A stretch of DNA of 64,000 bases from the NCBI GenBank assembly GCA_017625535.1, contig JAGAKR010000030.1, positions 1-64,000 on the forward strand, written 5' to 3'. Every line of letters begins with the position of its first letter. Positions within the stretch are counted from its first letter, which is position 1. The notes under the pieces were generated by a model. The model saw nothing but the letters and a program-made list of their open reading frames with translations. It searched no databases and had not been told where the DNA came from. The DNA comes from Bacteroidales bacterium (GTDB taxonomy: Bacteria > Bacteroidota > Bacteroidia > Bacteroidales > UBA932). The position numbers and the translations under genes are program-made. Shown in pieces: positions 2,879 through 54,470 of this stretch.

Positions 2879-3402
2879 TTAAGTACTCACTCTTTTAATC
2901 CCCCTCCTAAACTCCCCATGACCTACTTTCTCAATCATTCCAACACTCACCCAACGGTTAATATACCTGTCGGCAGAAGGGACAGGGATACCCAAGGTTT
3001 CTGCAATCTGCAGATAGGTCTGTCGGGAAAATGTAGCATCGTCAGGCGGGGCGGTAAGGAACTGCTGCTGTCGGGAAGAAGAGAGGTGGACCGATGGGTT
3101 TTCTTCTACTTGAGGCAGGGTGCTGAAGATTTTGCCGGTGTGTACCATTAGGGTGTTGCAGATGGTGAGGGCGGTGGAAAAGTCTTCATTTGTGCAGGTG
3201 AGTTTGGTTGGGATCTCTCCGGTTTCCAGGATGCGGAGGGCAGAGAGAATGAGGATGATTCTGAAGGCTGAGAGCCCCAGGCGGCGTACGGATGCGATGA
3301 TGTATTCTCCGTGGGTGTTCATCTGGGAGGTTTGAATGGTGGAGAAGTAGTTGTTGAACTTGTTTTGCTGGGATGGGGTCTATGAGGTTACGGCATAGGG
3401 TA
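2879..3402 (-). pseudogene. DUF3987 family C-terminal remnant, frameshifted
   Basis: The longest open frame (147 codons, from 3322) reads like the C-terminus of Bacteroidales DUF3987 proteins: SVRRLGLSAFRIILILSALR, then a winged-helix-like tail (ATFSRQTYLQIAETLGIP). Similarity continues upstream of its first ATG as QQNKFNNYFSTIQTSQ. It then shifts frame near 3365-3373 to CRNLIDPIPA at about 3395-3366, and stops follow in every frame. Intact DUF3987 proteins are several hundred residues long and usually sit in mobilizable or integrated islands, often with VirE-type proteins. This is therefore a 5'-deleted, frameshifted relic. Together with the neighbouring truncated nuclease it suggests an eroded mobile element next to the restriction cassette. 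The family call is from recalled motifs, not a search. Confidence 0.65.
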
Positions 3403-3467
3403 GATATAAATTAAAAATGTCCCGTTTTTTGTGTAAAAAACGGGACATTCATTATAGCTTGTTGAGT

Positions 3468-4151
3468 TTAATTTTCGTTCTCTTCAAACTCTTCAATCCA
3501 TGCTTTGAGTTTGTTTTGAAGCTCTGTTTTATCGGGAAGATACAGGGCATATTCTGCTGCATAGATATTGGCATTTTCTGGCAATGTGAGTTTGATGAGT
3601 GCATCTTTTTTCTCTTTACATAGCAGGATGCCTATGGTTGGCTTTTCAAACTCCTGTTTCACATAGCGGTCATAATAGTTGACGTACATTTGCATCTGGC
3701 CAAGATCCTGATGGGTAAGTTTGTCAATTTTCAGATCAATGAGAACATAGCACTGAAGCAGACGGTTGTAGAAGATAAGGTCTACATAGTAGTTGTCTTC
3801 ATCAAATGTGAATCGTCTTTGGCGTTTTTCAAACAGGAAGCCTTTTCCCATCTCTAGCAGGAACTCTTGCATTTTATCAATGATTGCAGACTCCAATTTG
3901 GTCTCAGAGTAAACTGCTTCAGGTTTCAAGCCAAGAAACTCCAGTGTTATTGGATTCTTGAGGATGTCTGTGGGTTTCTCAATTGTTTGTCCTTCTTGAG
4001 CAAGACGCAGCACCTCGCTTTTATCTTTACTAAGGGCCAATCTCTCATACAAGCTGCTGTTTACCTGACGCTGTAACCAACGTACACTCCAGTTCTGTTT
4101 TGCGCATTCTATTTCGTAGAAACTGCGGGCATTGGCATCGGGAATACGCAT
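3468..4151 (-). CDS. DUF1016 / YhcG-type PD-(D/E)XK nuclease domain, N-terminally truncated
   Basis: A 227-codon frame covering the C-terminal PDDEXK nuclease half of DUF1016 (YhcG) proteins. The core is visible as YYVDLIFYN (Asp124) and YVLIDLKI (Asp139, Lys141), followed by the helix HQDLGQMQMYVNYYD. Full-length members are about 330-370 residues and carry a DUF1016 N-terminal domain that is missing here. Family sequence runs past the first ATG in frame (FSLSWSHYLILMRI), and the frame stays open to 4241 with no ATG. The gene is therefore likely a 5'-deleted remnant, unless a non-ATG start is used. It sits among mobile-element relics; DUF1016 genes are common accessory nucleases near restriction systems. 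Expression is doubtful because the upstream DNA holds only a palindrome. Confidence 0.7.
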   Translation of the reverse strand: MRIPDANARSFYEIECAKQNWSVRWLQRQVNSSLYERLALSKDKSEVLRLAQEGQTIEKPTDILKNPITLEFLGLKPEAVYSETKLESAIIDKMQEFLLEMGKGFLFEKRQRRFTFDEDNYYVDLIFYNRLLQCYVLIDLKIDKLTHQDLGQMQMYVNYYDRYVKQEFEKPTIGILLCKEKKDALIKLTLPENANIYAAEYALYLPDKTELQNKLKAWIEEFEENEN

Positions 4152-4211
4152 AAGTATCAGATAATGAGACCAGGAGAGGGAAAATTTATGAGTTACAGGT
4201 GTAGTATCTTG

Positions 4212-4238
4212 AAAATCGTAAACAGTGTTTACGATTTT
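4212..4238. repeat. Perfect 13-bp inverted repeat with 1-base centre
   Basis: AAAATCGTAAACA, a single G, then TGTTTACGATTTT. It lies at the broken 5' edge of the DUF1016 remnant. Such a compact palindrome is typical of a repressor operator (for example of a toxin-antitoxin autoregulator) or a recombinase site. No matching regulator gene is next to it. Confidence 0.75.
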
Positions 4239-4345
4239 TGATCAATGAGGTTGGACACGCTTTCCAGTATCTGATGCATCAGCATCCAAGGGTTGTGTGC
4301 CCAATCTCTTCGGCAGGCAGGGCATACCACAAAACAATCCTCTCT

Positions 4346-5009: not shown

Positions 5010-5573
5010 TCAGTACGCTATCAACTCAATCTGCATATGCCACATAGGGTGTCCCAGGAATTGTTTTGTTCCAATACGCCTGAAGCCCAGTAAGGTATAT
5101 AGTTTTTCCACCAAGGGACGCTCAACCTCAACTATGAGGCCAACCTTACTGCAACCGGCATCTGATGCAACGGAGCAGATGGCCCGGATAAGGGCAGAAG
5201 CAACTCCGCAGCCACGGAAGTGGGGCAGCACACCAAGGGAATCGAGGTAGAATTCTCCTTGCGAAGTTTCGTCGGGAAGATGGGGAACGGCAGGGTTGTA
5301 TTTCCCCACAATGGAGAGGGTCTTCTCCCTCAACGGGTAGAGCATTGCCCCGTCATACCCCACAATTGCTCCGGCAGGCTCCCCATCCACAAATGCCACA
5401 AGGGAATTGGCATAACTGTATTGTGTACCCTGGGTGCAGGCAATCTCTTCCAACACTGCAAGGTAATTTTCTCCGCAGTATTCCGCCACAGATTCCTCTC
5501 CTATTGCCATTGCAACTGCCCTGGCAATTATTGGGGCATCCTCCCGGCCGGCTTTCTTTATTGCAATCTCCAT
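5010..5573 (-). CDS. GNAT family N-acetyltransferase
   Basis: A single-domain GNAT protein of about 187 residues. The acetyl-CoA motif A is visible as GVLPHFRGCGVASALI and the later strand as KLYTLLGFRRIGTKQF. The start is placed at the ATG at 5573 (MEIAIKKAGRED). The upstream in-frame ATG at 5609 would overlap the preceding transporter gene and adds residues outside the fold. The acceptor is unknown. It is flanked on the same strand by the TauE-type transporter (upstream) and the sugar acetyltransferase (downstream), so the three may form one transcript from the promoter near 6371. Confidence 0.85.
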   Translation of the reverse strand: MEIAIKKAGREDAPIIARAVAMAIGEESVAEYCGENYLAVLEEIACTQGTQYSYANSLVAFVDGEPAGAIVGYDGAMLYPLREKTLSIVGKYNPAVPHLPDETSQGEFYLDSLGVLPHFRGCGVASALIRAICSVASDAGCSKVGLIVEVERPLVEKLYTLLGFRRIGTKQFLGHPMWHMQIELIAY

Positions 5574-5598: not shown

Positions 5599-6354
5599 CT
5601 ACATTGCACTGCACAAAATTATCACTCCACTTATTCCTATATACCCGTATACCACATACGGGAACTTTTTGCCGGGTATGCGGTTGAAGGCCCAGGCTCC
5701 CAATGTGGAACCAATTGCCACCGCCCCAAGGCAGAACAGGTAGCATTTCCCAACAGCCGGGGTTACAAATCCGTTCCCCGCCCTGGCTATTGTCATCATT
5801 GCATTTGTAATTACAAAATAGGTCTGTATCATCCCCATATAATGCTCCTTGTCCTCCTCTGCCGAGATGAAATAGAGCACTGCCGGAGGGCCGTGCATTC
5901 CAAAGAAGCCCCCCATAAGGCCGCTCAAAGAGCCCGCCCCCAACTGGTATGGCAAAGTTGTGCCAAATTTTATCCTCTTGTTCAGGAATGCAAAATATAT
6001 GCTTACAAAAATGAGGATGAAACCCAGTATAAACCTTATTGTGGAATCCTGCATAACCTTAAGCAGGCAGATTGCCGCTGTGGAGGTAAGGAGGAAGATG
6101 GAGAGGATGGGAATGAGCCTTTTCCAGGTAATGAACCGCCTGTATTTTATTGCAGCAACAAGGGATGTTGTAAAGGCCAATAATCCCGACAGTGCCGTGG
6201 CTTCGCCGTATGAAGGCATAAGGAAAGGGAGCAGGGTCATTATGAAAATGCCGAACCCGAACCCTGTGGTCCTCTGCACAAAACTGGCCCCAACAGCCAG
6301 CAGGAATATCTGTATAATATTTTCTGTTAAAAATGACACAGGCACTGTTTCCAT
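5599..6354 (-). CDS. TauE/SafE family sulfite/anion exporter
   Basis: A 251-residue membrane protein with about eight hydrophobic helices. It carries the two short family repeats, including the TTGFGFGIFIMTLLPFLMPS segment near the N-terminus and GGFFGMHGPPAVLYF in the middle. TauE/SafE proteins export sulfite, sulfoacetate or related anions, or serve as uptake facilitators; the substrate is not predictable here. It is the first gene of a minus-strand run with the GNAT and Maa genes. A TAATTTTG promoter box lies 17 bp upstream and is divergent from the ElaA fusion gene. Confidence 0.88.
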   Translation of the reverse strand: METVPVSFLTENIIQIFLLAVGASFVQRTTGFGFGIFIMTLLPFLMPSYGEATALSGLLAFTTSLVAAIKYRRFITWKRLIPILSIFLLTSTAAICLLKVMQDSTIRFILGFILIFVSIYFAFLNKRIKFGTTLPYQLGAGSLSGLMGGFFGMHGPPAVLYFISAEEDKEHYMGMIQTYFVITNAMMTIARAGNGFVTPAVGKCYLFCLGAVAIGSTLGAWAFNRIPGKKFPYVVYGYIGISGVIILCSAM

Positions 6355-6407: not shown

Positions 6408-6412
6408 GAACC

Positions 6413-8357: not shown

Positions 8358-9047
8358 TTATCCCACCCCAAGGCCGGTGTTCTCCACAAGAATCTCCACC
8401 TTGGGGTGGTCTTTATATAATGGGTACACCTCTTCCATAAACCTGGCCACAATGGCTTCATCCCTGTGCAATGAGGTTGAATTGTTGCAGAAAAGGTTCA
8501 CGCTCAGATACTCAAAATGGTCCACAGCCGTTTGGATATCGGGAAGAATATGGCTGAAATCCTCCACATCCGTGCCGCACAGGAGACATACCCCCTGAAA
8601 ATATTCTGCAATCTCCCTGCACCCCGCAGTTTCAGGTACCCCCTTGTTCCACCTTTTCCGGAGCCCGGCATCAAAACTCTCCACCCCGCAACGGAACTTC
8701 ACCTGCACCCCAGGGAAAAGGGAGGCAAACTCCCCCAGCCTCTTGCGGTACATCCAATGTGCCTCAAACCATAAGGTATGGATCTTTTTCTTCCCGACAA
8801 CTTCCTGCAGCAGATCCACAGTCTGCCGGTCCAGTTCCAGGCAGGAGCCGGAATTTATCACATCCAGCACTCCGTGGCAACCGGTGACCTGTTCCAGCAC
8901 CGGGCGGTTGACAAGAAAAGGATCTTCACTTGTATCTGAATGGTAATCACAGAAAGTACATTTCCCCCACCGGCATCCTGTACCCTGCAGCAGCACAAAC
9001 TCCCTGGGGAATTTTTCATTTATTACAGAATACCTCTCCATAATCAT
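8358..9047 (-). CDS. Radical SAM enzyme next to a queuosine-precursor transporter (queuine lyase candidate)
   Basis: 229 residues with the radical SAM cysteines in GCRWGKCTFCDYH (spacing CX4CX2C, a variant of the usual CX3CX2C). The remainder is a short TIM-barrel-like region with FRCGVESFD. The start at 9047 overlaps the upstream transporter stop by 4 bases (ATGA), so the two are translationally coupled. Some gut bacteria salvage queuine with a transporter of this type plus a radical SAM lyase (QueL) that releases preQ1. This gene is a candidate for that role by context; it could also be an unrelated small radical SAM protein. No tgt, queA or queG is present in the window. Confidence 0.75.
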   Translation of the reverse strand: MIMERYSVINEKFPREFVLLQGTGCRWGKCTFCDYHSDTSEDPFLVNRPVLEQVTGCHGVLDVINSGSCLELDRQTVDLLQEVVGKKKIHTLWFEAHWMYRKRLGEFASLFPGVQVKFRCGVESFDAGLRKRWNKGVPETAGCREIAEYFQGVCLLCGTDVEDFSHILPDIQTAVDHFEYLSVNLFCNNSTSLHRDEAIVARFMEEVYPLYKDHPKVEILVENTGLGVG

Positions 9048-10514: not shown

Positions 10515-12059
10515 ATGAAAAACTATCTTAAAGCATTCAGCAGGCTTGTTGCAATGAGCCTTGTGGCGGTTGCTGTTTTTGCATCGTGCTGCAGCAATCC
10601 ATCTGCCAAGTATTACAAATCCATTCCCGACGGTTTTGACGCAATGTGCCAGCGCGCCATTGACGAGTGGAAAGTACCGGGAATGGCAGTAGCCGTAGTA
10701 AAGGACGGTGAGGTTGTATTTATGAAAGGTTACGGAAACGCACACCTTGGAGATTCCACTGCTGCACCGGTACCTGTAACCCCACAGACACAGTTTGTAA
10801 TTGCATCAACATCAAAAGCATTCACATCGGGCCTTCTGGCAAATGTGATGGACCAGTATCCCGAAATCAAATGGGATGCACCGGTTGTGGATTATCTTCC
10901 CGATTTCAAGATGTATGACCCTTGGGTAACAGAGAACTTCCAGGTAAGGGACATAATGTCGCACCACAGCGGATTCAATGCATACGCACTTGACGACCTT
11001 CCAACCTGGGGATACAACCGCGACGACCTTTACCGCATCTACTCTGTACTGCAGCCTACCTACAGCTTCCGTACAAAATATGCCTACAACAACAGTATGT
11101 ACACCATCTCTGCCAAAATCATTGAGAAATATACCGGAAAAAGTTGGGACGAGGCTCTTGTAGAGCGCATCTTCACCCCTCTTGGAATGAAGAACAGTAC
11201 CACCGGAAACCTTTCATTCTATACTGCAGAGAACCTTGCACAGGGTTACAGGATGAGAAAGGCAGAGGGAAAGAACGAGATTGAGGTTGTTCCACGCACA
11301 GACAAGGACGATGCATTTGCATGGCTTTCTGCCGTTGCCCCTGCAGGATTTGTAATCTCTACAGTAGAGGATATGGCAAACTGGGTTAAGATGCACCTGA
11401 ACCACGGTACATTTAATGGCAAAGAGATAATCTCACGCAAGAACCACGATATGCTCTTCTACCCCCAGACCATTACAGGCAGCGATTCAACCCGTCTTAC
11501 CAACTATGCACAGGGCTGGACAGTTGAGTACGGACTCCAGGGCCGCTATATAAGACATACAGGTCTTGCTTACGGCTACACTGCTCTTGTAGGACTTCAT
11601 CCTGAAATGAATCTTGGTTTCGTATTCCTTACAAACAACGGAAGTTCATCTGATCCTCAGTCTGCCCTTGGCCGCGACCTTATTGAGCTTTACAAAGGCA
11701 ATGCAGATGCCGGCCACTTTGACGAGTACCTTGCAGACTACCTTGAGGACCTTTACAGCGAAGAGGAAGATGAGAATAAACCTGAAGAGACTCCTGTAGA
11801 CCCTATGGCCAACAGCGTATACACCGGTTCTTACAAACTTGAACCTTTTGGCACAGCCAAAGTTTATGAGAAAGACGGCCAGCTTTACTTCAATCTTAAA
11901 GATGTTGACTCACCGCTCAAACACAAGAACGGCAACGTATTCAAATTCTACCAGCCAGGTTCTGGTACATTTGACCTTACCTTTACAGTTAAAGGGAACA
12001 AGGCACAGTCGCTTACATTTGATATTGTAGACCCTGTAGGTGAGTTCAAACGCATATGA
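10515..12059 (+). CDS. Serine hydrolase, class C beta-lactamase-like, with DUF3471 C-terminal domain
   Basis: A 514-residue exported lipoprotein: hydrophobic signal, then a lipobox at ASCCSNPS. The beta-lactamase/AmpC fold carries the catalytic STSK (SxxK, about residue 94), the YNN-type motif in KYAYNNSMY (about 193-198) and an HTG in place of KTG (RHTGLAYGY). After an acidic Glu-rich linker, residues from about 435 form a beta-sandwich (YTGSYKLEPFG, then FTVKGNKAQSLTFD) like DUF3471. Family members are peptidases or esterases acting on cell-wall fragments, peptides or esters; classical beta-lactamase activity is not implied. It is monocistronic, with a clear promoter and a hairpin terminator. 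Confidence 0.9.
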   Translation: MKNYLKAFSRLVAMSLVAVAVFASCCSNPSAKYYKSIPDGFDAMCQRAIDEWKVPGMAVAVVKDGEVVFMKGYGNAHLGDSTAAPVPVTPQTQFVIASTSKAFTSGLLANVMDQYPEIKWDAPVVDYLPDFKMYDPWVTENFQVRDIMSHHSGFNAYALDDLPTWGYNRDDLYRIYSVLQPTYSFRTKYAYNNSMYTISAKIIEKYTGKSWDEALVERIFTPLGMKNSTTGNLSFYTAENLAQGYRMRKAEGKNEIEVVPRTDKDDAFAWLSAVAPAGFVISTVEDMANWVKMHLNHGTFNGKEIISRKNHDMLFYPQTITGSDSTRLTNYAQGWTVEYGLQGRYIRHTGLAYGYTALVGLHPEMNLGFVFLTNNGSSSDPQSALGRDLIELYKGNADAGHFDEYLADYLEDLYSEEEDENKPEETPVDPMANSVYTGSYKLEPFGTAKVYEKDGQLYFNLKDVDSPLKHKNGNVFKFYQPGSGTFDLTFTVKGNKAQSLTFDIVDPVGEFKRI

Positions 12060-12160: not shown

Positions 12161-14254
12161 TTATTCAGTTTCTGAAGTGACCTGGACATCACGTTTGTCC
12201 GGGCCTTTCTTTTTTGCAGGGTAGGCAATTCTGGCGTGGTAAATCTCCTGCAGGTGTTTCTTGAACACAGCCTTAACCACATTTATCTCCTTTATGGAGA
12301 TGTCTGCCATTTCCAGCTGTGAATCAGATATCCTCTGGCTGGTAATCCCTTCCACAAGTTTTGAGATGCTCTCTGCTGAGTAATCCTTAAGTGTACGCGA
12401 GGCTGCCTCCACTGCATCCGCCATCATTACAACCACCTGCTCTTTTGAGGTTGGAAGCGTTCCCTGATATGTGAATGCATCTATATCTGCAGGGTCTCCC
12501 CCATCGTTGCAGTATTGGGTATAGAAATATCCTGTCTGGGATCTTCCGTGGTGAGATGTGATGTAATCCACAACTATCTGCGGAAGGTTGTGCTTGCGGG
12601 CCAGTTCCACACCGGCTGCAACGTGCTTTATTATCTCCTGCGCACTCTCCTTTGGTGAAAGCCCCTTGTGGTAGTTCACTCCTGGAGCCTGGTTCTCTAT
12701 GAAACATTGCGGATTGCTTATCTTTCCAATATCGTGGTACATTGCCCCAACCTTTACAAGACGTGAATTGCCCCTTATGGCAAGCACCGCCCTCTCCGCC
12801 AGGTTGGCAACCTGCAGCGAGTGCTGGAAAGTGCCAGGAGCCTTGCGTGCAAGTTCCTGCAGAAGGGTATTATTTGTATCTGAAAGGTCCTTCAGGGTAG
12901 CAACGGAAACCAGTGAGAATATCTTCTCAAGCAGGAATACCAGAGGATATGCAGCAACCACAAGGAATGCATTAGCAAAGATGAACATTATTATAGTGTA
13001 GTTGACACCCTCAAATGTACCGCTCTCCATAAGCCTGAACGCCATATGCAATATGAACATCCCCACAAAAATAATGAGGGAGTTGAGGAACTGGAGCCAT
13101 CCCCTGTACAGAAATGAGAACGAAACCAGTGCAACACCTCCTGCCACCGCATTGAGCATATAGAGTTCCACTCCGTATTCAGAAACTATCAGTAGAGGCA
13201 TAAGCAATATCATATATATTGGGAATACCATCTTGTTCCTGAAGAATGCCATCATATAGAGTGCAAACACCGCATACGGCACCATAAACATAAAGTGGGC
13301 ATCCATCCTCCTGGCAACCATTGTAACCAAAAACGCCATAACCACAACCAGAAGAATGAAGTTGAAGCGGTTGCTCTCCCTTAGTATGTCAAAATTCACA
13401 AAATAGATTGTCACATACACCAGCAGAAGGATTACAAGGCATATTATTGAGTGGGCAAACAGCAGCTGCCACTCATTGCCCGAATATCCGAAACTTAGTT
13501 CATACTCCGCCTTATAGGAATCCAGCAGCTGTTCAATATCTGCTGTAATTGTTTCACCTTCAGTTACAATAAGCTGCCCCGCATAAACCATCCCTTTGGT
13601 TGGGGAGATATAGTTGATGGCTTCCTTGTGCAGGAGGTCTGTATTCTGTCTGCTGAATATGAGGTTGGGCTGTACAAGATCCTGCACTCCATATGCTGCC
13701 ACCAGGGAGTCTGTATTGTACTGCGGCATATTCAACTGCAGGTCCGATTTCAAATATTGCTGTGCAGCCGATACGGTAAATAGTGCAGACTGCAGTTCCT
13801 CCACGGTCTGCCTCTCCTTCTGCACCATAACATAACTGGTACGGGAGCCGTCAGTTTCAGAATTGTCGGGAATAACTCCTGTATTGTAAATGTACTGCAA
13901 GGCTGAAGCCATCTCCTTCTCCAGGTCTGCGGGTATTGAATGTTTCACCTGCAGGCGTGCCAATGCCGCAATGCCTGCCTGCCCTACTGCAGGATCATAG
14001 ATATAATACGGAATCACTTTTGCCGCTGCCGCATCTTTCTCCGCAAAAAGTTCTGCCTCTGTCTTCAGGATAGGAAAATCCATTGGGGCAACTAGGGTTT
14101 CATAAATCCAAGGACGTCCTTTATGGTATTCGTATTTGAATTTCCCTTCATTTGGGAAAAAGAGCATCATTACAATAAAAGCCACTGCCAGGCTTACATA
14201 CACAGACCTTTTCTTTAAGATGGCCTTTGTTTTGTGGGTATTTATAACTTCCAT
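12161..14254 (-). CDS. pgpH: PgpH-like c-di-AMP phosphodiesterase (7TM-HD family)
   Basis: 697 residues: one N-terminal membrane helix, an extracytoplasmic domain (about 40-275), a block of seven or eight membrane helices (about 285-480) and a cytosolic HD domain. The HD domain shows HSLQVANLAERAV and YHDIGK (the HD metal-binding pair), then HVAAGVELARKHNLP and the distal TSHHGRS. This is the 7TMR-HDED/PgpH architecture, which hydrolyses c-di-AMP to pApA. A YbbR/CdaR-like gene at 60926 in the same window belongs to the same signalling system; the cyclase itself is not here. The -7 box lies 5 bases before the ATG, suggesting a leaderless transcript. The promoter region is shared with the divergent esterase gene. 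Confidence 0.92.
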   Translation of the reverse strand: MEVINTHKTKAILKKRSVYVSLAVAFIVMMLFFPNEGKFKYEYHKGRPWIYETLVAPMDFPILKTEAELFAEKDAAAAKVIPYYIYDPAVGQAGIAALARLQVKHSIPADLEKEMASALQYIYNTGVIPDNSETDGSRTSYVMVQKERQTVEELQSALFTVSAAQQYLKSDLQLNMPQYNTDSLVAAYGVQDLVQPNLIFSRQNTDLLHKEAINYISPTKGMVYAGQLIVTEGETITADIEQLLDSYKAEYELSFGYSGNEWQLLFAHSIICLVILLLVYVTIYFVNFDILRESNRFNFILLVVVMAFLVTMVARRMDAHFMFMVPYAVFALYMMAFFRNKMVFPIYMILLMPLLIVSEYGVELYMLNAVAGGVALVSFSFLYRGWLQFLNSLIIFVGMFILHMAFRLMESGTFEGVNYTIIMFIFANAFLVVAAYPLVFLLEKIFSLVSVATLKDLSDTNNTLLQELARKAPGTFQHSLQVANLAERAVLAIRGNSRLVKVGAMYHDIGKISNPQCFIENQAPGVNYHKGLSPKESAQEIIKHVAAGVELARKHNLPQIVVDYITSHHGRSQTGYFYTQYCNDGGDPADIDAFTYQGTLPTSKEQVVVMMADAVEAASRTLKDYSAESISKLVEGITSQRISDSQLEMADISIKEINVVKAVFKKHLQEIYHARIAYPAKKKGPDKRDVQVTSETE

Positions 14255-14305: not shown

Positions 14306-15106
14306 ATGATCCGTTTTGCAGTTACACTGCTTGTATGCATCCTGGCACTTGGAAATGCAAATGCCCAGGAACTTATGGTACTTGAGAGCGATAACCTCAA
14401 ATGCAATGACTCAGTACTTGTATTCACACCAAAGAACCTGAATGAGAACACCCCTACCCTCTTCCTGCTTCACGGCTGGAGCGGATGCTACTCAAACTGG
14501 AGCCAGAAACACGACATCCAGGAGATAGCAGACAGGACCAATTTCAGAATCATATGCCCAGACGGCTTCTACAACAGCTGGTATCTTAACAACACAGATC
14601 CTGAGAAAATGCAGTGGAGGACCTTCTTCTGGAGCGAACTGTATCCAATGATTCAGAAGAAATACAACCTCACTCCCGACAAAACTTTCATTACAGGTCT
14701 GAGTATGGGTGGACACGGGGCGATGAATCTGTTCCTCGACAACCCCGATGCATTCAGATCTGCAGGAAGCATGAGCGGCGTGCTTGACCTACAGCTTACC
14801 CCGCTTGCTGAGAAGGAGATTTCAAAAGTTATAGGCGACAAGAGGAACAGACTCTACGAAGAGAGCGCAATAAACAGGGTACAGGTACTTGCAGGCAAGA
14901 ACAAGCCTATAATTGTAAGTTGCGGCTATGACGACTACTATGTAAGATGTACAGACCTCTTCACCCAGAAATGCCGCTATATGGGCATCCCTCACGTGGC
15001 ATTGCTTACCCCTGGAAAACACTCTTGGCAGTACTGGGGATTTGCCCTTGAAGAGCATCTTGCATTCTTCCAGAAACTCCTCAGAGGAGACAATCTGGGA
15101 TATTGA
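14306..15106 (+). CDS. Secreted alpha/beta-hydrolase (esterase D-like)
   Basis: 266 residues from the ATG at 14306. The N-terminal signal peptide ends near ANAQE, so the protein is exported. The alpha/beta-hydrolase fold shows the oxyanion segment LFLLHGWSGCYSNW, the nucleophile elbow GLSMGGHGA and the catalytic His in TPGKHSWQYW. An Asp in CGYDDYYV may complete the triad. The family includes feruloyl and acetyl esterases and S-formylglutathione hydrolase-like enzymes. The export signal points to a carbohydrate or peptide ester substrate, but none is identified. An ATG further upstream (14234) lies before the promoter box and was rejected as start. Confidence 0.88.
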   Translation: MIRFAVTLLVCILALGNANAQELMVLESDNLKCNDSVLVFTPKNLNENTPTLFLLHGWSGCYSNWSQKHDIQEIADRTNFRIICPDGFYNSWYLNNTDPEKMQWRTFFWSELYPMIQKKYNLTPDKTFITGLSMGGHGAMNLFLDNPDAFRSAGSMSGVLDLQLTPLAEKEISKVIGDKRNRLYEESAINRVQVLAGKNKPIIVSCGYDDYYVRCTDLFTQKCRYMGIPHVALLTPGKHSWQYWGFALEEHLAFFQKLLRGDNLGY

Positions 15107-15226: not shown

Positions 15227-15263
15227 TATAAAATGAATAAATTGTCGGGAAGAATTTTCATTG

Positions 15264-34962: not shown

Positions 34963-35556
34963 ATGAAAAGAATTTATTTGTTGTCAATTACCCTACTTAC
35001 CCTACTTGGTTTCGGAACAACACTCAATGCGCAGGATTTCGGATCCGAGACAACAATGTCTAGACAAGAATCAAGGAAAGCGGCAAGAGCCGCCCACAAG
35101 AAAGCTCTTGCAGCAGAAAACCAACTTGAGTTTGAAAAGGCTGTGCAATGTCTCAAAGAGGGGAGTTTTGTAATTGAAGCAGACCAGCTGCTGTTCCCTC
35201 GAGGACTCACAAAATTTGTATCCGGTATCACCAATTTTGTCTCTATGAAGGATGGCAAGGCTGTAATACAGATTGCTACAAGCTACTTCAGGCCCGGTCC
35301 CAACGGTGTGGGTGGCATCACTGTAGAAGGCAATGCATCAAACATCACAATGAGTACCGGGAAAAAGGGTACAGTCTACTATAATTTTATGGACCAGGGT
35401 ATTGCTGTATCCGCCACTGTAAACATCCAGCTTACCGGTGACGGGAACAGGGCAACTGTAACTATCTACCCTAATTTCAACAGCAACAACCTTACAATGA
35501 CAGGAAGGCTTGTTCCTTACGAGGAGTCAGACATATTTCAAGGCCAGACATATTAG
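34963..35556 (+). CDS. DUF4251 exported protein
   Basis: 197 residues from the ATG at 34963 (MKRIYLLSITLLTLLGFG, then TTLNAQ). A short basic helix (SRQESRKAARAAHKKALAAE) is followed by the DUF4251 beta fold: GSFVIEADQLLFPRG, then GVGGITVEGNASNITMS and VSATVNIQLTGDGNRATVTI. The function of DUF4251 is unknown; members are exported and often lie near OmpA genes. The upstream ATG at 34942 would bury the signal and was not used. Its stop codon overlaps the AddA-like stop on the other strand by 3 bases (35553-35556). Confidence 0.83.
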   Translation: MKRIYLLSITLLTLLGFGTTLNAQDFGSETTMSRQESRKAARAAHKKALAAENQLEFEKAVQCLKEGSFVIEADQLLFPRGLTKFVSGITNFVSMKDGKAVIQIATSYFRPGPNGVGGITVEGNASNITMSTGKKGTVYYNFMDQGIAVSATVNIQLTGDGNRATVTIYPNFNSNNLTMTGRLVPYEESDIFQGQTY

Positions 35557-38600: not shown

Positions 38601-38611
38601 ATCCTCTCCTC

Positions 38612-41455: not shown

Positions 41456-43663
41456 TTACCTCAAATCCTTTACCCTGTTTTTCTCTCCTACAACCCAAAC
41501 CGTATCTCCGCCCTTTATTATTGTGGCAGATGTTGTCCTTATGAAAGTGTTGCTCTCCTCCCCCTCAAGTCCAACCATAAGTACCCCAAACTTCTCCCTT
41601 ATGTGGGTAATGTTGCCATTCTCCCCTACCAATGGAGAAGAATTCTGCAATGTAATCTGGAACAGCTCCAGATCCGCCCCACCTGCAACAGGTTTATGAT
41701 GCTCCTCCGCTGCCTCCTTAAAGTCCATTATCTGTTTGTCGGTACCAAGGATTATGAGTATATCCATCGGGAAGATTATCTCTGTATTCGGCGGCAGGTC
41801 CAGTATTTCCATACCCCTTACAATCTGTATCACCAGGGCTCCTGTCTTCTTTGAGTGGTGTATCTGGGAAATGCTTTTTCCTTGCAATGACGAATTCGGT
41901 TCCACCTCCACCTTCTCTATATGTATCTCATCCGCCAGTTCACGTGGAAGTACAAGTGATCTTCTCCCCCCCTCACTGTTCAGATTGGTAAGGAAGCGGT
42001 CCTCAATCCTTGCATAATACTCCTTTATCTTCTTTGATGCCAGTACTGCGGCTATAATTATGGCACAAAGTGTAAGACCTGCACCAAATCCCATTGAAAT
42101 GTACCTCGATGATGTGATTGAGATTGCAATTATTGCAATGATATACTTCAGCATCGTCATGAACACCAGCGGCCCCCGTGCAAACTTCTGGTCCTGCCAT
42201 ATCTTGTCAAATGCGCCGTCACTGTCCTTACGCTTGAGCAGACCCCAGAGGAACGGCATCATTGCCAGAAGGTTTGCCACAAAAGAGAGTATCCTTATGT
42301 GTGTTGCCTCGCCAAACCACTTCACTATCTGCGGATAAAGTATCTGCGTAAACAATATGCCCACAAACAGCAGCCAGCCCACATAAATGAAAAGCCTCAA
42401 GGCATATGACTTAAGCAGTTTGTTCCATTCCCCCTCCTGGTTCAGCGTTTTCCTTCCGGTTCCCAGCCTCTCAATCACAACCCGCCACTGCGGTTTCACA
42501 CTCCTGTATATGAAATTATAGAGAGGCTCTCCCATCTTAATCCAATACGGGGTAATGAATGTGGTAAGTATGGAAACCGTAACAATAACCGGATAAAGAT
42601 GTTTTGGCACAACATTGTGGTCCAGCCCCATCTGCACAATAATGAAGGAGAACTCACCAATCTGGCACAGGCATACTCCCGACAAAATTGCATTCTTGAG
42701 TGTCTGCCCGGAGAAAAGGAGTCCCAATGTGGCACCCAAAGGCTTGGCAACAATTATCACCACAGAAATCAGGATTACCTGAGGCCAATACTCCAGAATT
42801 GCAGAAGGGTCAACCAGCATACCTACAGATACAAAGAAAATTGCCCCAAAGAAATCCTTTATGGGTTTTGTAACCTTTACTATTTTGTCGCTCTGTATTG
42901 TGCCGCTGAGGATGGATCCCATTACAAATGCTCCAAGCGCCTCTGAAATGCCGGCATTTACAGTAATCACCACCATCATAAGGCAAAGGCCCAGGGAAAC
43001 TACAATAAGGGTTTCATCAGAAAGGAACTGCTTGAGTTTCTTGAATATGGTAGGAATGAAGAATACACCGCCTGTAAACCACAGCAGCAGGAACAATGCC
43101 AGGTTTGCCACCTTGTCTGCCAGTTCCACCCCATTGAAACTCTTGCTCAGCACAAGGGCCGGAAGCAGCACCAGAATGAGTATGGCAACCAGATCCTCAA
43201 CCACAAGGGCTCCAAAAACCATCTGCGTGAACTTCTTGTTCTTCACCCCCATATCATCAAATGCCTTTATGATTATGGAAGTTGATGAGATGCTCAACAT
43301 TCCCCCAAGGAAAATTGAAGCCACCCAAGACCAGTCAAGCACCCTTCCCACAAGGATACCCATACAGAACATCATCACCACCTCCGTAAATACAGTTATG
43401 AATCCGGGACCACCAACTTTCTTCAGTTTCTTGAAACTGAACTCAAGTCCAAGTCCGAACAGCAGGAAGATTACACCAATCTTCCCCCAGAAATCCACAC
43501 TCTCTATATTGCCTACAGTAGGAATGAAAGAGATGTACGGGCCCGTAAGGACACCGGCAACAATATACCCCAGCACAAGCGGCTGCTTCAGTTTTTTGAA
43601 CAATACGGTTACAATACCTGCCACAATAAGGATAAGGGCAAGGTCAGACAACAAATGATTCAT
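41456..43663 (-). CDS. KefB-type cation:proton antiporter with C-terminal TrkA-C domains
   Basis: 735 residues: a 12-13-helix Na+/H+-exchanger domain (about 1-390; LGYIVAGVLTGPYISF, FLLFGLGLEFSFKKLKK, GGMLSISSTSIIIKAFDDMG). A second small helical block follows, then cytosolic TrkA-C (RCK_C) domains (about 580-735; SLQGKSISQIHHSKKTGALV and SPLVGENGNITHIREKFGVL). The transporter exchanges K+ or Na+ for protons under ligand control. No TrkA-N NAD-binding domain is evident, unlike E. coli KefB. It is followed 6 bp later by the AddB-like gene and preceded 18 bp by the MgtC-like gene. Confidence 0.9.
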   Translation of the reverse strand: MNHLLSDLALILIVAGIVTVLFKKLKQPLVLGYIVAGVLTGPYISFIPTVGNIESVDFWGKIGVIFLLFGLGLEFSFKKLKKVGGPGFITVFTEVVMMFCMGILVGRVLDWSWVASIFLGGMLSISSTSIIIKAFDDMGVKNKKFTQMVFGALVVEDLVAILILVLLPALVLSKSFNGVELADKVANLALFLLLWFTGGVFFIPTIFKKLKQFLSDETLIVVSLGLCLMMVVITVNAGISEALGAFVMGSILSGTIQSDKIVKVTKPIKDFFGAIFFVSVGMLVDPSAILEYWPQVILISVVIIVAKPLGATLGLLFSGQTLKNAILSGVCLCQIGEFSFIIVQMGLDHNVVPKHLYPVIVTVSILTTFITPYWIKMGEPLYNFIYRSVKPQWRVVIERLGTGRKTLNQEGEWNKLLKSYALRLFIYVGWLLFVGILFTQILYPQIVKWFGEATHIRILSFVANLLAMMPFLWGLLKRKDSDGAFDKIWQDQKFARGPLVFMTMLKYIIAIIAISITSSRYISMGFGAGLTLCAIIIAAVLASKKIKEYYARIEDRFLTNLNSEGGRRSLVLPRELADEIHIEKVEVEPNSSLQGKSISQIHHSKKTGALVIQIVRGMEILDLPPNTEIIFPMDILIILGTDKQIMDFKEAAEEHHKPVAGGADLELFQITLQNSSPLVGENGNITHIREKFGVLMVGLEGEESNTFIRTTSATIIKGGDTVWVVGEKNRVKDLR

Positions 43664-44427: not shown

Positions 44428-45756
44428 TTACAGTCTTGCCCTGATAGCTTTTGAAGCCTCCTCGTATCCCGGCTTGTCGAGCAATGCAAACATATTCTTC
44501 TTGTAGTCCTCAACACCAGGCTGGTTGAAAGGATTTACTCCAAGCATATATCCGCTTATACCGCAGGCAATCTCAAACATATAGAACAACTCGCCCAAGT
44601 TGTACTCATCTATCTGATCTATCTCTATCTCAAAGTTAGGGACACCGCCGTCTGTATGTGCAAGGCGTGTACCCAACTGTGCCATCTTGTTCACATCCTC
44701 AACACGTTTACCTGCAAGGAAGTTCAAACCGTCAAGGTTCTGCTCATCCTTCTCAATTTTAACTGTATGGAAAGCTTTCTTTACAAGAACGTTTGTCTCA
44801 AACAATGTCCTCTCGCCATCCTGGATATACTGGCCCATAGAGTGGAGGTCTGTAGAGAAATTCACAGATGCAGGGAAAATGCCCTTGCCGTCCTTGCCCT
44901 CGCTCTCACCATACAACTGTTTCCACCACTCTCCAAGATACTGGAGTTTTGGATTGTAGTTTACAAGAATCTCTATCTTCTTGCCCAATGAATATGCTGC
45001 ATTACGGGCAGCTGCATAAAGGATTGCAGGGTTTACAGCCTCTTTCTTGCTGCATACCTCCTGCATATGTCTTGCACCCTCAACCAATGCCTTTATATCA
45101 AAACCAGCCACTGCAATAGGAAGAAGTCCTACAGGGGTAAGTACAGAGAAACGGCCTCCCACATTGTCGGGAATTACAAAAGTTGTATATCCTTCCTGGG
45201 TTGCCAAAGTCCTCAAAGCTCCTTTTGAAGCATCTGTAATTGCCACTATCCTCTCTTTGCATATCTCTTTGCCGAATCTCTTCTCCATATCCTCCTTAAG
45301 GATTCTGAAGGCAATTGCAGGCTCGGTTGTTGTACCGGATTTTGAGATTACAATTGTAGCATATGTCCTGTGCGAAAGGAACTCAAGAAGTTCTGCAGTA
45401 TAGTCTTCTGAAATGTTGTGACCTGCAAATACAATCTGGGGATGTGTATTTGGCATACTTGCGGCAAATGTGTGCGACAGTGCCTCAATTGCACATTTGG
45501 CACCAAGGTATGAACCGCCTATACCTACAACCACAACTGCATCAACCTTACCTATCCATCTTTTCACTATGCTGTTACAAGCATCTATAAGTGTACCGTC
45601 TATCTCTGACGGAAGATTTACCCAACCAAGGAAATCATTGCCTGCACCGTTTCCTGCAAGCACTGTATCCAAACCGGCATAAGCCTTCTCTATCTGCTCA
45701 TTGAGCAGTGACTCTGAAATAAAGCCTTCAGCAGCTTTCAAATTGATTGAAACCAT
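44428..45756 (-). CDS. pgi: Glucose-6-phosphate isomerase
   Basis: 442 residues, the short bacterial form. It interconverts glucose-6-phosphate and fructose-6-phosphate in glycolysis. Visible signatures are [39 protein letters not shown] (phosphate-binding SIS segment) and [16 protein letters not shown]. The catalytic Glu is expected in [17 protein letters not shown], the His in [10 protein letters not shown] and the late Lys in [14 protein letters not shown]. It stands alone between gpsA and mgtC-like genes, with 58-83 bp gaps. Confidence 0.97.
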
Positions 45757-47628: not shown

Positions 47629-48713
47629 TATGCTATTACAGGCTTGCCCGGCCTCTCTTTCTGAGGCGTTTCAAACTCCTTTATCTGAAGCGGGTTCTCG
47701 TGCATCTTGTCGTAACGCTCCCTGTTCCTGAATACATCTATTGCAAGATATATTGCACTTATCATTGATTGTGGATTGGCCTTGTTCTCACCTGCAAGGT
47801 CAAATGCTGTTCCGTGGTCAGGGGAAGTGCGGACAACCGGGAGTCCTGCAGTAAAGTTCACTCCGCTGTCAAATGCAAGTGATTTGAACGGAATGAGCCC
47901 CTGGTCGTGGTACATTGCAAGCACTGCATCAAATTTGTACTGCATGTTCACGCTGAAGAATCCGTCGGGAGGATAAGGTCCGAATGCCAGAATGCCCTCC
48001 TGGTTTGCCTGCTCAATTGCAGGGGCAATTATCCTGAGTTCCTCATCACCCATAAGCCCTTTGTCTCCGGAATGAGGATTGAGGCCCAACACCGCCAATT
48101 TTGGCTTCACTATATTGAAATCCCTCAACAGGGATTCGTTCATGATCTTTAGTTTGCTTACAATGAGTTCAGGTGTGAGGGCTTCCGAAACTTTTGACAA
48201 GGCCACATGTCCTGTTGCCACTCCCACCCTCATCTGATCTGAGCAGAGGAACATAAGGCCGTCCTTGGCCTCAAATTCATTCACAAGGTACTCTGTATGT
48301 CCTGCATATTTGAATGTCTCCTCTGTTACCGACCTTTTGTTGAAAGGTGCTGTGATTATTGCATCAAGATATCCCTCCTTAATCTCCTCCACAGCCTTCT
48401 CCAATGCTATGATTGCTGCTTTCGCCCCCTCGTGGGTGCACTGCCCGGGATCAATCTGAAGGTTGTCGGGAAGACAATTCACTATATTCACCCTTTTTGG
48501 ATGTGCATCCTTTGCCGATGTTATTACATTTGTGTTTATATTCTCTGTTTCAGGGATATTCTTCCTGTAGAACCCGAAAGCCTTTGACGAACCGTACACC
48601 ACCGGAGTGCACATCTCCAGAATCCTGGCATCCGACAATGCCTTTATAATCACCTCATATCCAATACCATTGGTATCTCCCTGCGTAATACCTACAACTA
48701 TTTTGCGTGTCAT
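47628..48713 (-). CDS. pdxA: 4-hydroxythreonine-4-phosphate dehydrogenase
   Basis: 361 residues from the ATG at 48713 (MTRKIVVGITQGDTNGIGYE). It makes the C3 skeleton of pyridoxine in the DXP-dependent vitamin B6 pathway. Metal-ligand and family motifs are ITAPFNKRSVTEETFKYAGHTEYL, LNPHSGDKGLMG and AMYHDQGLIPFKSLAFDSGVN. The longer upstream frame to 49190 is antisense to recG and is not coding. It diverges from recG across an 81-bp gap and is coupled to rnhA downstream. No other pdx gene is in the window. Confidence 0.96.
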   Translation of the reverse strand: MTRKIVVGITQGDTNGIGYEVIIKALSDARILEMCTPVVYGSSKAFGFYRKNIPETENINTNVITSAKDAHPKRVNIVNCLPDNLQIDPGQCTHEGAKAAIIALEKAVEEIKEGYLDAIITAPFNKRSVTEETFKYAGHTEYLVNEFEAKDGLMFLCSDQMRVGVATGHVALSKVSEALTPELIVSKLKIMNESLLRDFNIVKPKLAVLGLNPHSGDKGLMGDEELRIIAPAIEQANQEGILAFGPYPPDGFFSVNMQYKFDAVLAMYHDQGLIPFKSLAFDSGVNFTAGLPVVRTSPDHGTAFDLAGENKANPQSMISAIYLAIDVFRNRERYDKMHENPLQIKEFETPQKERPGKPVIA

Positions 48714-48794: not shown

Positions 48795-50909
48795 ATGCCA
48801 AACATCCTTGATACTGAAATAAAATACCTTCCGGGCATAGGGCCCAAAAGGGCGGAGCTTCTGGGCAAGGAGCTTGGGATTTTCACGTTCAGGGATATGC
48901 TCTATTTTTTCCCTTTCCGCTACATAGACCGCAGCAAGGTGTACACCATAAGGGAGTTGCAGCCAACAATGGCATACATACAGGTAAGGGGAAAGATTAC
49001 CTCCACAGCCACAGTTGGGGATTCTCCACGGAGCAAACGTTTTGTGGCAACGCTGCAGGATCCTACGGGAAGGATAGATCTGGTGTTTTTCAAAGGGGTT
49101 AAATGGATTCAGGAGAAGATAAAAATAGGGCAGGAATACATTGCCTTTGGAAAGCCCTCCGAATTCAACGGTATGCTGAATATGGTGCATCCTGAACTCA
49201 ACCTCCCTACAGATGAGATACTTTATGGGGGAAGTTCAATGATGGGTGTATATTCAAGCACAGAAAAAATCAAGAACAGCGGAATGGGGAACAAGCAGAT
49301 TTCAAAATTCCAGCTCACAATCCTGGAAAAATATCTTGATCTTATTCCCGACACTCTTCCACCCTACCTGCTTGAGAAGAAAAAGCTGTGCTCACTGAAG
49401 GAGGCCCTCAAGAACATACATTTCCCTACCGACAATGCCACTCTTGCCCGTGCCCAGTTGCGCCTCAAATATGAGGAACTGTTCTACCTGCAGCTTGGAC
49501 TTCTGAAACAAAAAAGCATCCGAATGCGCCAGGACGGGGGAATCCTTATGCCGAAGGTTGGGGAGAGTTTCAACAAATGTTATGCTGCACTGCCATACCC
49601 CCTTACAGGGGCCCAGAAAAGGGTAATAAAGGAGATGCACGCAGATATGAAGAGCGGAAAACAGATGAACCGCCTGCTGCAGGGGGATGTGGGGAGCGGA
49701 AAAACACTTGTGGCAGTATTGTGTTCCCTCCTGGCCGTAGACAACGGCTACCAGGCCTGCATAATGGCCCCTACTGAGGTGCTTGCGCAGCAGCATTATA
49801 AAGGGATTTCCGAACTCCTTGCCCCTACCGGGGTATCTGTAGCACTGCTTACCGGAAGCACCAAGACAAAAGAGAGAAAAGAATTGCTTCCGGCTTTGGA
49901 GGCAGGTGAAATAAAAGTGCTGGTAGGAACCCACGCATTGATTGAGGATGGTGTAATTTTCAACAAGCTTGGCCTTGCTGTAATTGACGAGCAGCACCGT
50001 TTTGGAGTGGAGCAGCGCTCCCGCCTGTGGGACAAATCGGCAGTTCCTCCACACGTTCTGGTAATGACGGCAACCCCTATCCCACGCACATTGGCAATGA
50101 CCCTTTACGGTGACCTTGATGTTTCGGTACTGGATGAACTCCCTCCGGGAAGAAAGCCCGTACAGACAATTCACGCCACCGAAACCCAGAGGGGACGGAT
50201 ATTCTCTTTTATGAAAGAGCAGATAGCCGCCGGAAGGCAGATATTTGTAGTGTACCCGCTCATTAAGGAGAGCGAAAAGATGGACTACAAGAACCTGCAG
50301 GAGGGATATGAGGCAATAATACAGGAATTCCCGGCACCGCAATATGTTACTGCAGTGGTTCACGGCAAACAGAAAAATGAAGACAAGCAGCACGATATGG
50401 ACCTCTTTGCCAACGGCCGTGCCCATATCCTTGTTGCCACCTCTGTAATTGAGGTGGGTGTGAATGTCCCCAATGCCTCAGTAATGATTATAGAGAGCGC
50501 TGAGCGTTTTGGATTAAGCCAGCTGCACCAGCTGAGAGGGCGTGTTGGCCGCGGCTCCGAGAAATCCTACTGTATCCTTATGACCGGCTACAAACTTAGC
50601 AAAGAGAGCCGCCAGAGGATTGAACTCATGTGCCAGACATCAGACGGCTTTGAACTGGCAGAGGCAGACCTGAGGATGCGCGGCCCCGGAGACCTTGAAG
50701 GGACCCTGCAGAGCGGCCTGGCAATGGACCTGCACATCTCAAACCTGGCAAAGGACTCCCAGATTCTGGAAGACTCCCGACAGCTTGCCCTCTCTGTCCT
50801 TGAAGCCGACCCATTGCTGGAGCACCCGGCAAATGCCCTGCTCCGCACCAATCTTGCAGCCCTGAAAAAAGCCGGCAAGACACCGGCCGATTATTCGCAG
50901 ATAAGTTAA
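48795..50909 (+). CDS. recG: ATP-dependent DNA helicase RecG
   Basis: 704 residues, normal for RecG. The N-terminal wedge/OB domain is about 50-180 (YIQVRGKITSTATVGDSPRS). The two helicase domains carry Walker A LLQGDVGSGKTLVAVL, TAPTEVLA-like MAPTEVLAQQH, the DEQH box IDEQHRFGVEQR, MTATPIPRTLAMTLYGDLDV, and the late QLHQLRGRVGRGSEKSYC. It remodels stalled replication forks and Holliday junctions. Followed 49 bp later by nfo on the same strand, making a small repair pair. Confidence 0.97.
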   Translation: MPNILDTEIKYLPGIGPKRAELLGKELGIFTFRDMLYFFPFRYIDRSKVYTIRELQPTMAYIQVRGKITSTATVGDSPRSKRFVATLQDPTGRIDLVFFKGVKWIQEKIKIGQEYIAFGKPSEFNGMLNMVHPELNLPTDEILYGGSSMMGVYSSTEKIKNSGMGNKQISKFQLTILEKYLDLIPDTLPPYLLEKKKLCSLKEALKNIHFPTDNATLARAQLRLKYEELFYLQLGLLKQKSIRMRQDGGILMPKVGESFNKCYAALPYPLTGAQKRVIKEMHADMKSGKQMNRLLQGDVGSGKTLVAVLCSLLAVDNGYQACIMAPTEVLAQQHYKGISELLAPTGVSVALLTGSTKTKERKELLPALEAGEIKVLVGTHALIEDGVIFNKLGLAVIDEQHRFGVEQRSRLWDKSAVPPHVLVMTATPIPRTLAMTLYGDLDVSVLDELPPGRKPVQTIHATETQRGRIFSFMKEQIAAGRQIFVVYPLIKESEKMDYKNLQEGYEAIIQEFPAPQYVTAVVHGKQKNEDKQHDMDLFANGRAHILVATSVIEVGVNVPNASVMIIESAERFGLSQLHQLRGRVGRGSEKSYCILMTGYKLSKESRQRIELMCQTSDGFELAEADLRMRGPGDLEGTLQSGLAMDLHISNLAKDSQILEDSRQLALSVLEADPLLEHPANALLRTNLAALKKAGKTPADYSQIS

Positions 50910-51857: not shown

Positions 51858-51876
51858 ATTTATCGGGAAGAAGGAA

Positions 51877-53547: not shown

Positions 53548-53584
53548 TTCAGTAAAAATTAACGTGCGAATATACAAAAAAGTG

Positions 53585-53592
53585 TACCTTTG
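53585..53592 (+). promoter_or_regulatory. -7 box (TACCTTTG) of yicC
   Basis: A consensus match 18 bp before the ATG at 53610, giving a leader of about 10 bases. Confidence 0.55.
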
Positions 53593-53609
53593 TCCAAAAT
53601 AAAGCAAGA

Positions 53610-54470
53610 ATGATAAAATCAATGACAGGCTACGGCAAGGCTGAATGCAACCTTCCGGGCGGCAAAATAACCATAGAGATACGCTCCCTCAACGGCAAGA
53701 ATGCAGACATAAGCATAAAATCATCCCTCATTCCAAGGGAAAAGGAGATGGAGGTAAGGCAGTACATTGCAAAAGAGCTGCACAGGGGCAACATAGACCT
53801 CTTTGCCACAATTGAGCAGAATGCGGCCGAGCAGGCAAAACAGATAAACAAAGAGATTTTTGGAAGCTACTTCAAACAGATACAGGAACTTGGCTTCAAC
53901 ACCTGCACAGACACAATCCTCCAGACAATCCTCCGTCTTCCCGACGTAATTGAAACCCAGAAACAGGAGATTACAGAAGAGGCCTGGGAACAGATGGAGA
54001 CCGCAGTGCACAATGCAGTTGCAGCCCTCAATGAGTTCCGCAGCCAGGAGGGTGAAATCCTCTACAAAGATGTAACAGGCAGGGTTGCCCTCATAGAATC
54101 GTTTGTGGAAGAGGTGGAAAAATACGAGCAGGAAAGGGTGCAGGCAGTAAAGGAGAGAATCCACAACCGCATTGCGGAACTTGGCATTAATCCCGACGAA
54201 AACCGCCTTGAGCAGGAAATAGTCTTCTACGTGGAGAAACTGGACATAAACGAAGAAAAAGTGCGTCTGCGCCAGCACTGCCGCTACTTTATGGAAACCA
54301 TCAACAACGAACCCAACCCCGGCAAGAAACTCGGCTTCATAGCCCAGGAAATGGGACGCGAAATAAACACAATGGGTTCAAAAGCCAACCACGCCCAAAT
54401 CCAGCAATGGGTGGTAAAAATGAAAGACGAACTTGAAAAGATAAAGGAACAAAGTTTGAATATCTTATAA
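53610..54470 (+). CDS. yicC: YicC/YloC family endoribonuclease
   Basis: 286 residues. The N-terminal YicC domain begins MIKSMTGYGKAE and continues IEIRSLNGKNADISIKSSLI. The C-terminal DUF1732 domain ends with LGFIAQEMGREINTMGSKAN and the final KDELEKIKEQSLNI, both hallmarks of the family. Members are RNases that act on small RNAs and mRNA. It has its own short-leader promoter and a strong terminator. Confidence 0.95.
   Translation: MIKSMTGYGKAECNLPGGKITIEIRSLNGKNADISIKSSLIPREKEMEVRQYIAKELHRGNIDLFATIEQNAAEQAKQINKEIFGSYFKQIQELGFNTCTDTILQTILRLPDVIETQKQEITEEAWEQMETAVHNAVAALNEFRSQEGEILYKDVTGRVALIESFVEEVEKYEQERVQAVKERIHNRIAELGINPDENRLEQEIVFYVEKLDINEEKVRLRQHCRYFMETINNEPNPGKKLGFIAQEMGREINTMGSKANHAQIQQWVVKMKDELEKIKEQSLNIL

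Follow-up and report, generated by a model that had tools for sequence, protein, structure and literature searches.

A recurrent 9-bp word in the window and its genome

The window analysed here, a 64,000-nucleotide stretch of a Bacteroidales genome (assembly GCA_017625535.1, contig JAGAKR010000030.1, positions 1 to 64,000), encodes an AddA-like and an AddB-like protein, both recovered by Pfam searches as an earlier note on this DNA had proposed, and carries 19 copies of the 9-mer TCGGGAAGA (11 on the plus and eight on the minus strand), where dinucleotide shuffling yields a mean of 0.33 and a maximum of 2. The note, which had counted at least 18 copies, was right about the 11 on the plus strand and about the span of positions 3071 to 53944, and fell one short on the minus strand (7 for 8); the two copies that it placed outside coding sequence, at 15245 and 51863, do lie between listed open reading frames (ORFs, at least 120 amino acids). 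The flanks of the 19 copies are unrelated to one another, and the preceding positions hold T in 14 and R in 18 of them, which bears out the upstream part of the extended consensus TRTCGGGAAGA suggested earlier; across 451 kb sampled from the source genome (the window and 20 further stretches), the AAGA end of that consensus comes out weaker than its core. The window also holds 62 RTCGGGA and 24 YTGTCGGGA sites, some of which are listed with the other features in Table 1.

The over-representation claimed for the window extends to the genome as a whole (2,181,994 bases, 31 contigs, 88.6% complete), with 417 copies of TCGGGAAGA versus 15 of the reversed word and 697 of YTGTCGGGA versus 34 of its reversal. 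The most over-represented 8-mer of the 451-kb sample is TGTCGGGA (177 observed, 4.8 expected), and the core profile reads Y-Y-R-TCGGGA-(A/G)-N-A with A-rich positions on either side; the full motif is longer, YTGTCGGGA followed on its 3' side by A-rich sequence, and TCGGGAAGA covers one end of it. A comparable architecture is found in G003, a single-contig relative of the same genus (2.229 Mb, of which 420 kb were sampled), where CTGTCGGGA occurs 146 times against 0.8 expected and sites are laid out as an A-rich segment, CTRTCGSGA, two freer bases and about seven A-rich positions. There the A-rich 3' flank accompanies each of the forms CTGTCGGGA (146), CTGTCGCGA (42) and CTATCG[GCT]GA (61), partly overlain by palindromes in the case of CTGTCGCGA.

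The codon-preserving control suggested in the earlier note was run on 350 ORFs (100 amino acids or more) picked mechanically from the 451-kb sample, rather than on annotated genes, by permuting synonymous codons within each ORF in 40 shuffles. YTGTCGGGA was observed 142 times versus a shuffled mean of 6.1-6.2 and a maximum of 14 (23-fold), and TCGGGAAGA 73 times versus 5.7; in the ORFs of G003, the corresponding values are 96 versus 2.3-2.6 for CTGTCGGGA (37-fold) and 156 versus 8.4 for the degenerate CTRTCGSGA (19-fold). Conservation, another of the checks proposed, was determined by aligning the window sites to L069-L073, five close relatives that share 79-83% nucleotide identity: RTCGGGA was retained in 40 of 76 site-by-relative comparisons, which are not independent because sites and relatives are shared, versus 760 of 3885 (mean 0.195) for CpG-containing control 7-mers of similar composition, and a retention as high as the observed one did not arise in any of 2000 control resamples, each of 25 sites. 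In more distant relatives, retention was 0/7 (L074) and 3/6 (L075).

Codon-shuffle excess, occurrence on both strands, non-coding copies, conservation and related words elsewhere in the genus all place the signal in DNA rather than protein, as had been argued from the window, and a single protein motif was rejected, the coding copies being found in either orientation and, at uneven frequencies, in every frame. That some frames are commoner than others is also what would speak for the excess being a chance product of codon usage, composition or repeats, an explanation that we regard as refuted and to which we leave next to no probability, given shuffles that never exceed 14 against 142, the rarity of the reversed word, the unrelated flanks of the window copies and the conservation of the sites. 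We regard the word as a real DNA motif, spread across the genome and under strong selection or drive.

Exclusive strong dialects within the genus

Among 39 genomes of the genus, we called a dialect strong where its word reached at least 200 copies and at least 3.7 times its reversed control. By this measure YTGTCGGGA (dialect A) is strong in 13 and a second word first detected in G097 and G119, RTCGCYGAG (dialect B), in 11, with 15 genomes showing neither and none showing both: the strong dialects are mutually exclusive inside one genus. The second word likewise exceeds its codon shuffle, ATCGCYGAG being observed 30 times versus 2.7 in G119 and 28 versus 5.0 in G097. Signals below threshold were found for RTCGCYGAG in G175 (86 versus 8 reversed), G173 (96 versus 37) and the dialect-A genome G003 (94 versus 46), and for YTGTCGGGA in G168 (111 versus 21) and G061 (92 versus 40); they may be relics, products of incomplete genomes or further dialects. 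In a family-wide sample of 149 genomes, YTGTCGGGA outnumbers its reversal several-fold, a milder surplus, in genera g19 and g20.

On a tree of AddB proteins from 28 genomes (one gene, midpoint-rooted), label A requires three changes and label B two, and the dialect-A genomes G003 and G169 are placed on the B side; dialect A may therefore be ancestral. No word as strong was found in samples of three of the 15 genomes below the threshold, G061, G130 and G027 (157, 100 and 90 kb). The G027 stretches (L060, L061 and L120-L126) hold 11 copies of ACTATCGC in 90 kb where 0.5-0.9 are expected, a possible third dialect, and a mild dispersed excess of GTCTAT/ATAGAC words was noted in stretches of G061, G108 and G074.

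Uptake sequence, Chi or chromosome-organising site

To place the motif among known systems, we ran most measures with the same scripts on E. coli Chi in 300 kb of MG1655, the only Chi system compared; the uptake-sequence side of the comparison rests on traits published in PMC1626085, in the part of that article drawn on here. Chi exceeds its codon shuffle 2.9-fold (76 versus 26.2), far below the 19- to 37-fold excess of the present words. Over 12 downstream positions, the flank carries 1.98 bits in the source genome, 1.86 in G003 and 0.74 in dialect B (G119 and G108 stretches) versus 0.18 for Chi, and the ratio of perfect to one-mismatch copies is 0.75-0.86, 0.95 and 0.48, respectively, versus 0.13. 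The dispersion index, for which no significance test was made, lies at 0.69-0.94 depending on bin and form (0.80-0.81 for the source genome in 5-kb bins) and at 1.13 for Chi. Non-ORF sequence is avoided by Chi (7/83 copies in 20.8% of the sequence) and clearly preferred by CTRTCGSGA in G003 (73/229 in 18.9%), with a slight preference in the source genome (28/170 in 14.5%).

Plus and minus totals of multi-contig genomes are uninformative on strand bias because contig direction is arbitrary. Relative to the locally G-rich strand, the motif splits 87:82 in the source genome and 86:60 in G003 (P = 0.038; degenerate form 143:102, P = 0.010), a lean to which composition alone may contribute, so that no leading-strand bias like that of E. 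coli Chi (61 leading, 22 lagging) was found. Neighbouring sites less than 150 bp apart face in opposite directions in 15/15 cases in G003, including seven overlapping palindromes, and in 21/29 (RTCGGGA) and 3/5 (YTGTCGGGA) in the source genome. Taken together, the motif appears to resemble E. coli Chi less than it does DNA-uptake sequences with their hallmarks as that part of PMC1626085 describes them.

The reading that we prefer, at an even chance, is that the motif acts most nearly as an uptake or self-recognition sequence whose reader is independent of the pilus. The motif would be a clade-specific self-recognition sequence comparable in action to the DNA-uptake sequences known from Neisseriaceae and Pasteurellaceae: a Bacteroidales protein would recognize the 9-bp core very specifically and exploit the A-rich flank for bending or melting, motif-bearing DNA would preferentially be taken up, or passed to recombination, through ComEC and DprA, and its recombination would sustain the abundance of the word while allowing it to change between clades along with the reader. 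We infer the reader's place at a DNA-transfer step, its identity and the drive that maintains the word; the abundance, dialects, sharp consensus, flanks, apparent lack of strong strand bias, conservation and ComEC/DprA matches are observed, as is the failure to find a pilin or pilus-type ATPase in the 12 genomes searched.

The likeness to the uptake signal sequences of Pasteurellaceae, as described in the part of PMC1626085 used, comprises a 9-bp core with an adjoining 3' A/T-rich stretch, a sharp consensus, close pairs that face in opposite directions, two clade-specific types comparable to the Hin and Apl types and, apparently, the lack of a strong orientation bias. The present motif differs in its word, phylum (Bacteroidota) and lower density, in having one A-rich 3' segment rather than the two described there, in perfect copies that are slightly fewer than one-mismatch copies, and in the lack of type IV pilus parts among 12 genomes searched, its uptake role being putative. 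Neisseriaceae sequences offer related, core-sharing words across the clades of one group and inverted pairs (PMC3630211, in part), but they are described without a flanking motif (PMC1626085, in part), their receptor is the pilin ComP (PMC3630211, in part), whereas no N_methyl pilin was found in our 12 genomes, and the pairs seen here are overlapping palindromes or spaced pairs rather than demonstrated terminators.

Machinery was searched in 12 of the 39 genus genomes with four families (N_methyl, T2SSE, ComEC and DprA), 14 control genomes serving for N_methyl and T2SSE. ComEC and DprA were each matched in 12/12 genomes, those that carry the motif and those that do not; a transformation route thus seems to be present in its inner part, its known outer part not being found in these 12. 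Several results weigh against an uptake role. The type IV pilin signature N_methyl was matched in 0/12 genomes (8/14 controls positive) and T2SSE above its Pfam cut-off in 0/12 (13/14 controls), with weak sub-threshold matches in 9/12, although known uptake sequences accompany type IV pilus proteins according to the part of PMC1626085 drawn on. Since ComEC and DprA also occur in motif-free genomes, they do not explain the motif's distribution, and since the ComEC match crosses stop codons in 5/12 genomes, the source genome included, the gene may not be intact; moreover, no receptor candidate was identified and no gene was tied to the presence of the motif. The density in the source genome (0.32/kb for the 9-mer, 0.78/kb for RTCGGGA) does not reach the one copy per kb typical of classical uptake sequences, the perfect to one-mismatch ratio stays below 1 throughout (0.48-0.95), unlike the values above 1 of true uptake sequences, gap lengths are near random (coefficient of variation 0.90-0.99) where uptake sequences would be spaced more regularly, and the G-rich lean of G003 and the only slight non-ORF preference of the source genome add to these. 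Because the pilus machinery was not found and the mismatch ratio is below 1, we do not claim membership in the known uptake-sequence systems.

DNA uptake is nonetheless the best fitting of the alternatives that the earlier note had listed, even with the pilus parts missing from the 12 genomes. PMC1626085, in the part drawn on, states in 2006 that uptake sequences were unknown outside Pasteurellaceae and Neisseriaceae, and our search of an open-access library found none named for any Bacteroidetes species. A Bacteroidota uptake or self-recognition system with switching dialects and a reader other than the type IV pilus would represent an independent origin of sequence-specific DNA exchange, a proposal that we hold somewhat more tentatively than the uptake role itself; such exchange would then have arisen again, pilus-free, in a dominant phylum of the animal gut.

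Two rivals are serious, and we consider both unlikely. The first, favoured by the earlier note, takes the motif for the Chi site of the window's own AddAB: as DNA ends are resected, AddB would recognize the word in the single strand, degradation would be turned off and recombination promoted, and the dialects would follow the divergence of AddB. AddAB-type enzymes respond to Chi (PMC4824097, in part), and like the Chi sites of RecBCD and AddAB the motif is a short, asymmetric, G-rich word of sharp consensus, present in hundreds of copies in a genome that encodes an enzyme of the cognate type. AddB was found in 38/39 genus genomes and is highly divergent (about 29-77% identity to that of the window in 30 other genomes, three of them partial), the dialect labels cluster on its tree with few changes, with the filter applied, two AddB columns tell A and B apart, and G003 leans mildly to the G-rich strand; a context effect is also reported for E. 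coli Chi. The cysteines C674, C934, C937 and C943 of AddB are invariant in 20 aligned sequences, as is presumably to be expected of an iron-sulphur nuclease domain. However, E. coli Chi differs from the motif in how strongly it is enriched, in its strand bias and flanks, in the share of copies outside coding sequence, and in spacing and mismatch spectrum, so that this explanation is not favoured. Leading-strand bias is not universal among Chi systems, and the AddAB of Bacteroidota may have habits of its own, apart from the E. coli profile. AddB is, moreover, present in genomes with neither dialect, and G166 (80% complete) shows strong dialect B (734 versus 50) with no AddB match, a gene that may lie in its missing sequence. 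Against the PDB, AddB gave no phmmer match and a profile search only a weak Cas4 match, too little for a comparison of Chi-pocket residues. Were the motif a Chi site instead, its over-representation and fast change would be unusual for Chi and would open AddAB-Chi coevolution to direct test, and under either reading the two dialects provide matched natural controls.

Slightly less probable still is a binding site for an abundant chromosome-organising or segregation protein, HU/IHF-like or SMC-loading, that would recognize the core and its A-tract. Such an architecture suggests bending of double-stranded DNA, and the conservation of the sites, their dispersal along the sampled contigs and the overlapping palindromic pairs of G003 fit as well. 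Known chromosome-organising motifs (KOPS, matS, parS, SlmA and Noc sites) show polarity, palindromic symmetry or a regional distribution, whereas the samples reveal neither strong polarity nor regional clustering, and turnover of dialects within a genus, with 15/39 genomes carrying neither, would be unusual for a housekeeping protein. The strand splits given above likewise speak against the FtsK-orienting motif put forward earlier, and KOPS, which requires strong origin-to-terminus polarity, was rejected.

Very improbable, finally, is a modification or restriction target that is abundant for that reason. An HsdM gene does lie at window positions 1227-2732, but it sits in the first 4 kb, at only 38% GC; Type I systems recognize bipartite sites, genomes usually avoid restriction sites instead of accumulating them, and neither the graded A-rich flank nor the series of dialects fits.

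Feature positions and minor observations

Table 1. Motif copies and AddAB-like genes in window coordinates, with the exact palindromes of G003 by locus.
Feature	Position	Strand	Basis or remark
YTGTCGGGAAGA-form copy	3068..3079	+	motif search
TCGGGAAGA copy	3532..3540	+	motif search
TCGGGAAGA copy	5272..5280	+	motif search
TCGGGAAGA copy	8539..8547	+	motif search
YTGTCGGGAAGA-form copy	8789..8800	-	motif search
TCGGGAAGA copy	10895..10903	-	motif search
YTGTCGGGAAGA-form copy, between listed ORFs	15242..15253	+	motif search, ORF list
YTGTCGGGAAGA-form copy	17130..17141	-	motif search
YTGTCGGGAAGA-form copy	25567..25578	-	motif search
YTGTCGGGAAGA-form copy	26457..26468	+	motif search
TCGGGAAGA copy	29802..29810	-	motif search
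TCGGGAAGA copy	32794..32802	-	motif search
TCGGGAAGA copy	32955..32963	+	motif search
YTGTCGGGAAGA-form copy	37661..37672	-	RTCGGGA retained in L072, the sole close relative aligned there
TCGGGAAGA copy	40446..40454	+	preceding base A here, G in L071, L072 and L073
TCGGGAAGA copy	41767..41775	+	motif search
YTGTCGGGAAGA-form copy	48463..48474	+	RTCGGGA retained in 5/5 close relatives L069-L073
TCGGGAAGA copy, between listed ORFs	51863..51871	+	motif search, ORF list
TCGGGAAGA copy	53936..53944	-	motif search
YTGTCGGGA copy	3020..3028	+	motif search
YTGTCGGGA copy	6184..6192	-	motif search
YTGTCGGGA copy	13863..13871	+	motif search
YTGTCGGGA copy	14674..14682	-	motif search
YTGTCGGGA copy	21084..21092	-	motif search
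YTGTCGGGA copy	28217..28225	+	motif search
YTGTCGGGA copy	31968..31976	+	motif search
YTGTCGGGA copy	35743..35751	+	motif search
YTGTCGGGA copy	38943..38951	+	motif search
YTGTCGGGA copy	42677..42685	-	motif search
YTGTCGGGA copy	45164..45172	+	motif search
YTGTCGGGA copy	50775..50783	-	lost in relatives aligned there
YTGTCGGGA copy	55265..55273	-	motif search
YTGTCGGGA copy	56639..56647	-	motif search
YTGTCGGGA copy	59639..59647	+	motif search
YTGTCGGGA copy	61545..61553	+	motif search
AddA-like protein	35553..38711	-	Pfam UvrD helicase domains; would read the motif, with AddB, only if it is a Chi site
AddB-like protein	38612..41449	-	Pfam PDDEXK_1; relevant if the motif is a Chi site
Exact CTGTCGCGACAG palindromes, G003	L093:6226, L094:14465, L095:16002, L103:14298, L108:17125, L110:10473		

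The exact palindrome CTGTCGCGACAG occurs six times, with one further variant, in the 420 kb of G003. All six exact copies have A/T-rich flanks, and the distance to an ORF start is 13-64 bp; five of them fall in gaps of less than 90 bp that separate co-directional ORFs; they are either overlapping opposite-facing motif copies or operators of a regulator that shares the half-site. Terminator pairs were rejected, given the position near ORF starts and no T-run evident by eye. An SOS operator was rejected as well, the Bacteroidetes SOS motifs published in PMC8565304 (GGA-N5-TCC and CTAA-N5-TTAG in the part of that article used) differing from the motif. An apparent depletion of near-misses at core positions was also discarded, as the first estimate was inflated by the motif itself: with the motif masked from the background, counts are near expectation, at 63 versus about 55 for positions 3-8 in the source genome and 40 versus about 33 for positions 1, 4, 5, 6, 8 and 9 in G003.

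Sites are scarcer in the lowest-GC tenth of 5-kb bins than in the top quarter (1.78 versus 4.61 per 5 kb in the source genome, 0.67 versus 3.24 in G003), partly because the motif itself contains G and C. The longest stretch free of RTCGGGA in the sample of the source genome (C9:94081-103185) has 45.0% GC, near the contig mean; the second longest (C2:14432-21998, L031-L032) covers 7.6 kb at 37.4% GC and holds large ORFs whose starts resemble, by eye only, a defence-type ATPase and partner proteins. In the window, positions 200-4151 form a stretch that resembles an island, is low in GC (38% over the first 4 kb) and encodes an integrase, HsdM, a YhcG/DUF1016 nuclease and a weak DUF3987 match below cut-off, and that still has motif copies at 3020, 3068 and 3532. 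The nearest relatives in a RecG search are uncultured Bacteroidales, mostly from ruminant and rabbit gut by title, and AddB (about 29-77% identity) varies more than RecG does in these relatives (77-91%), the two ranges coming from different sets of genomes.

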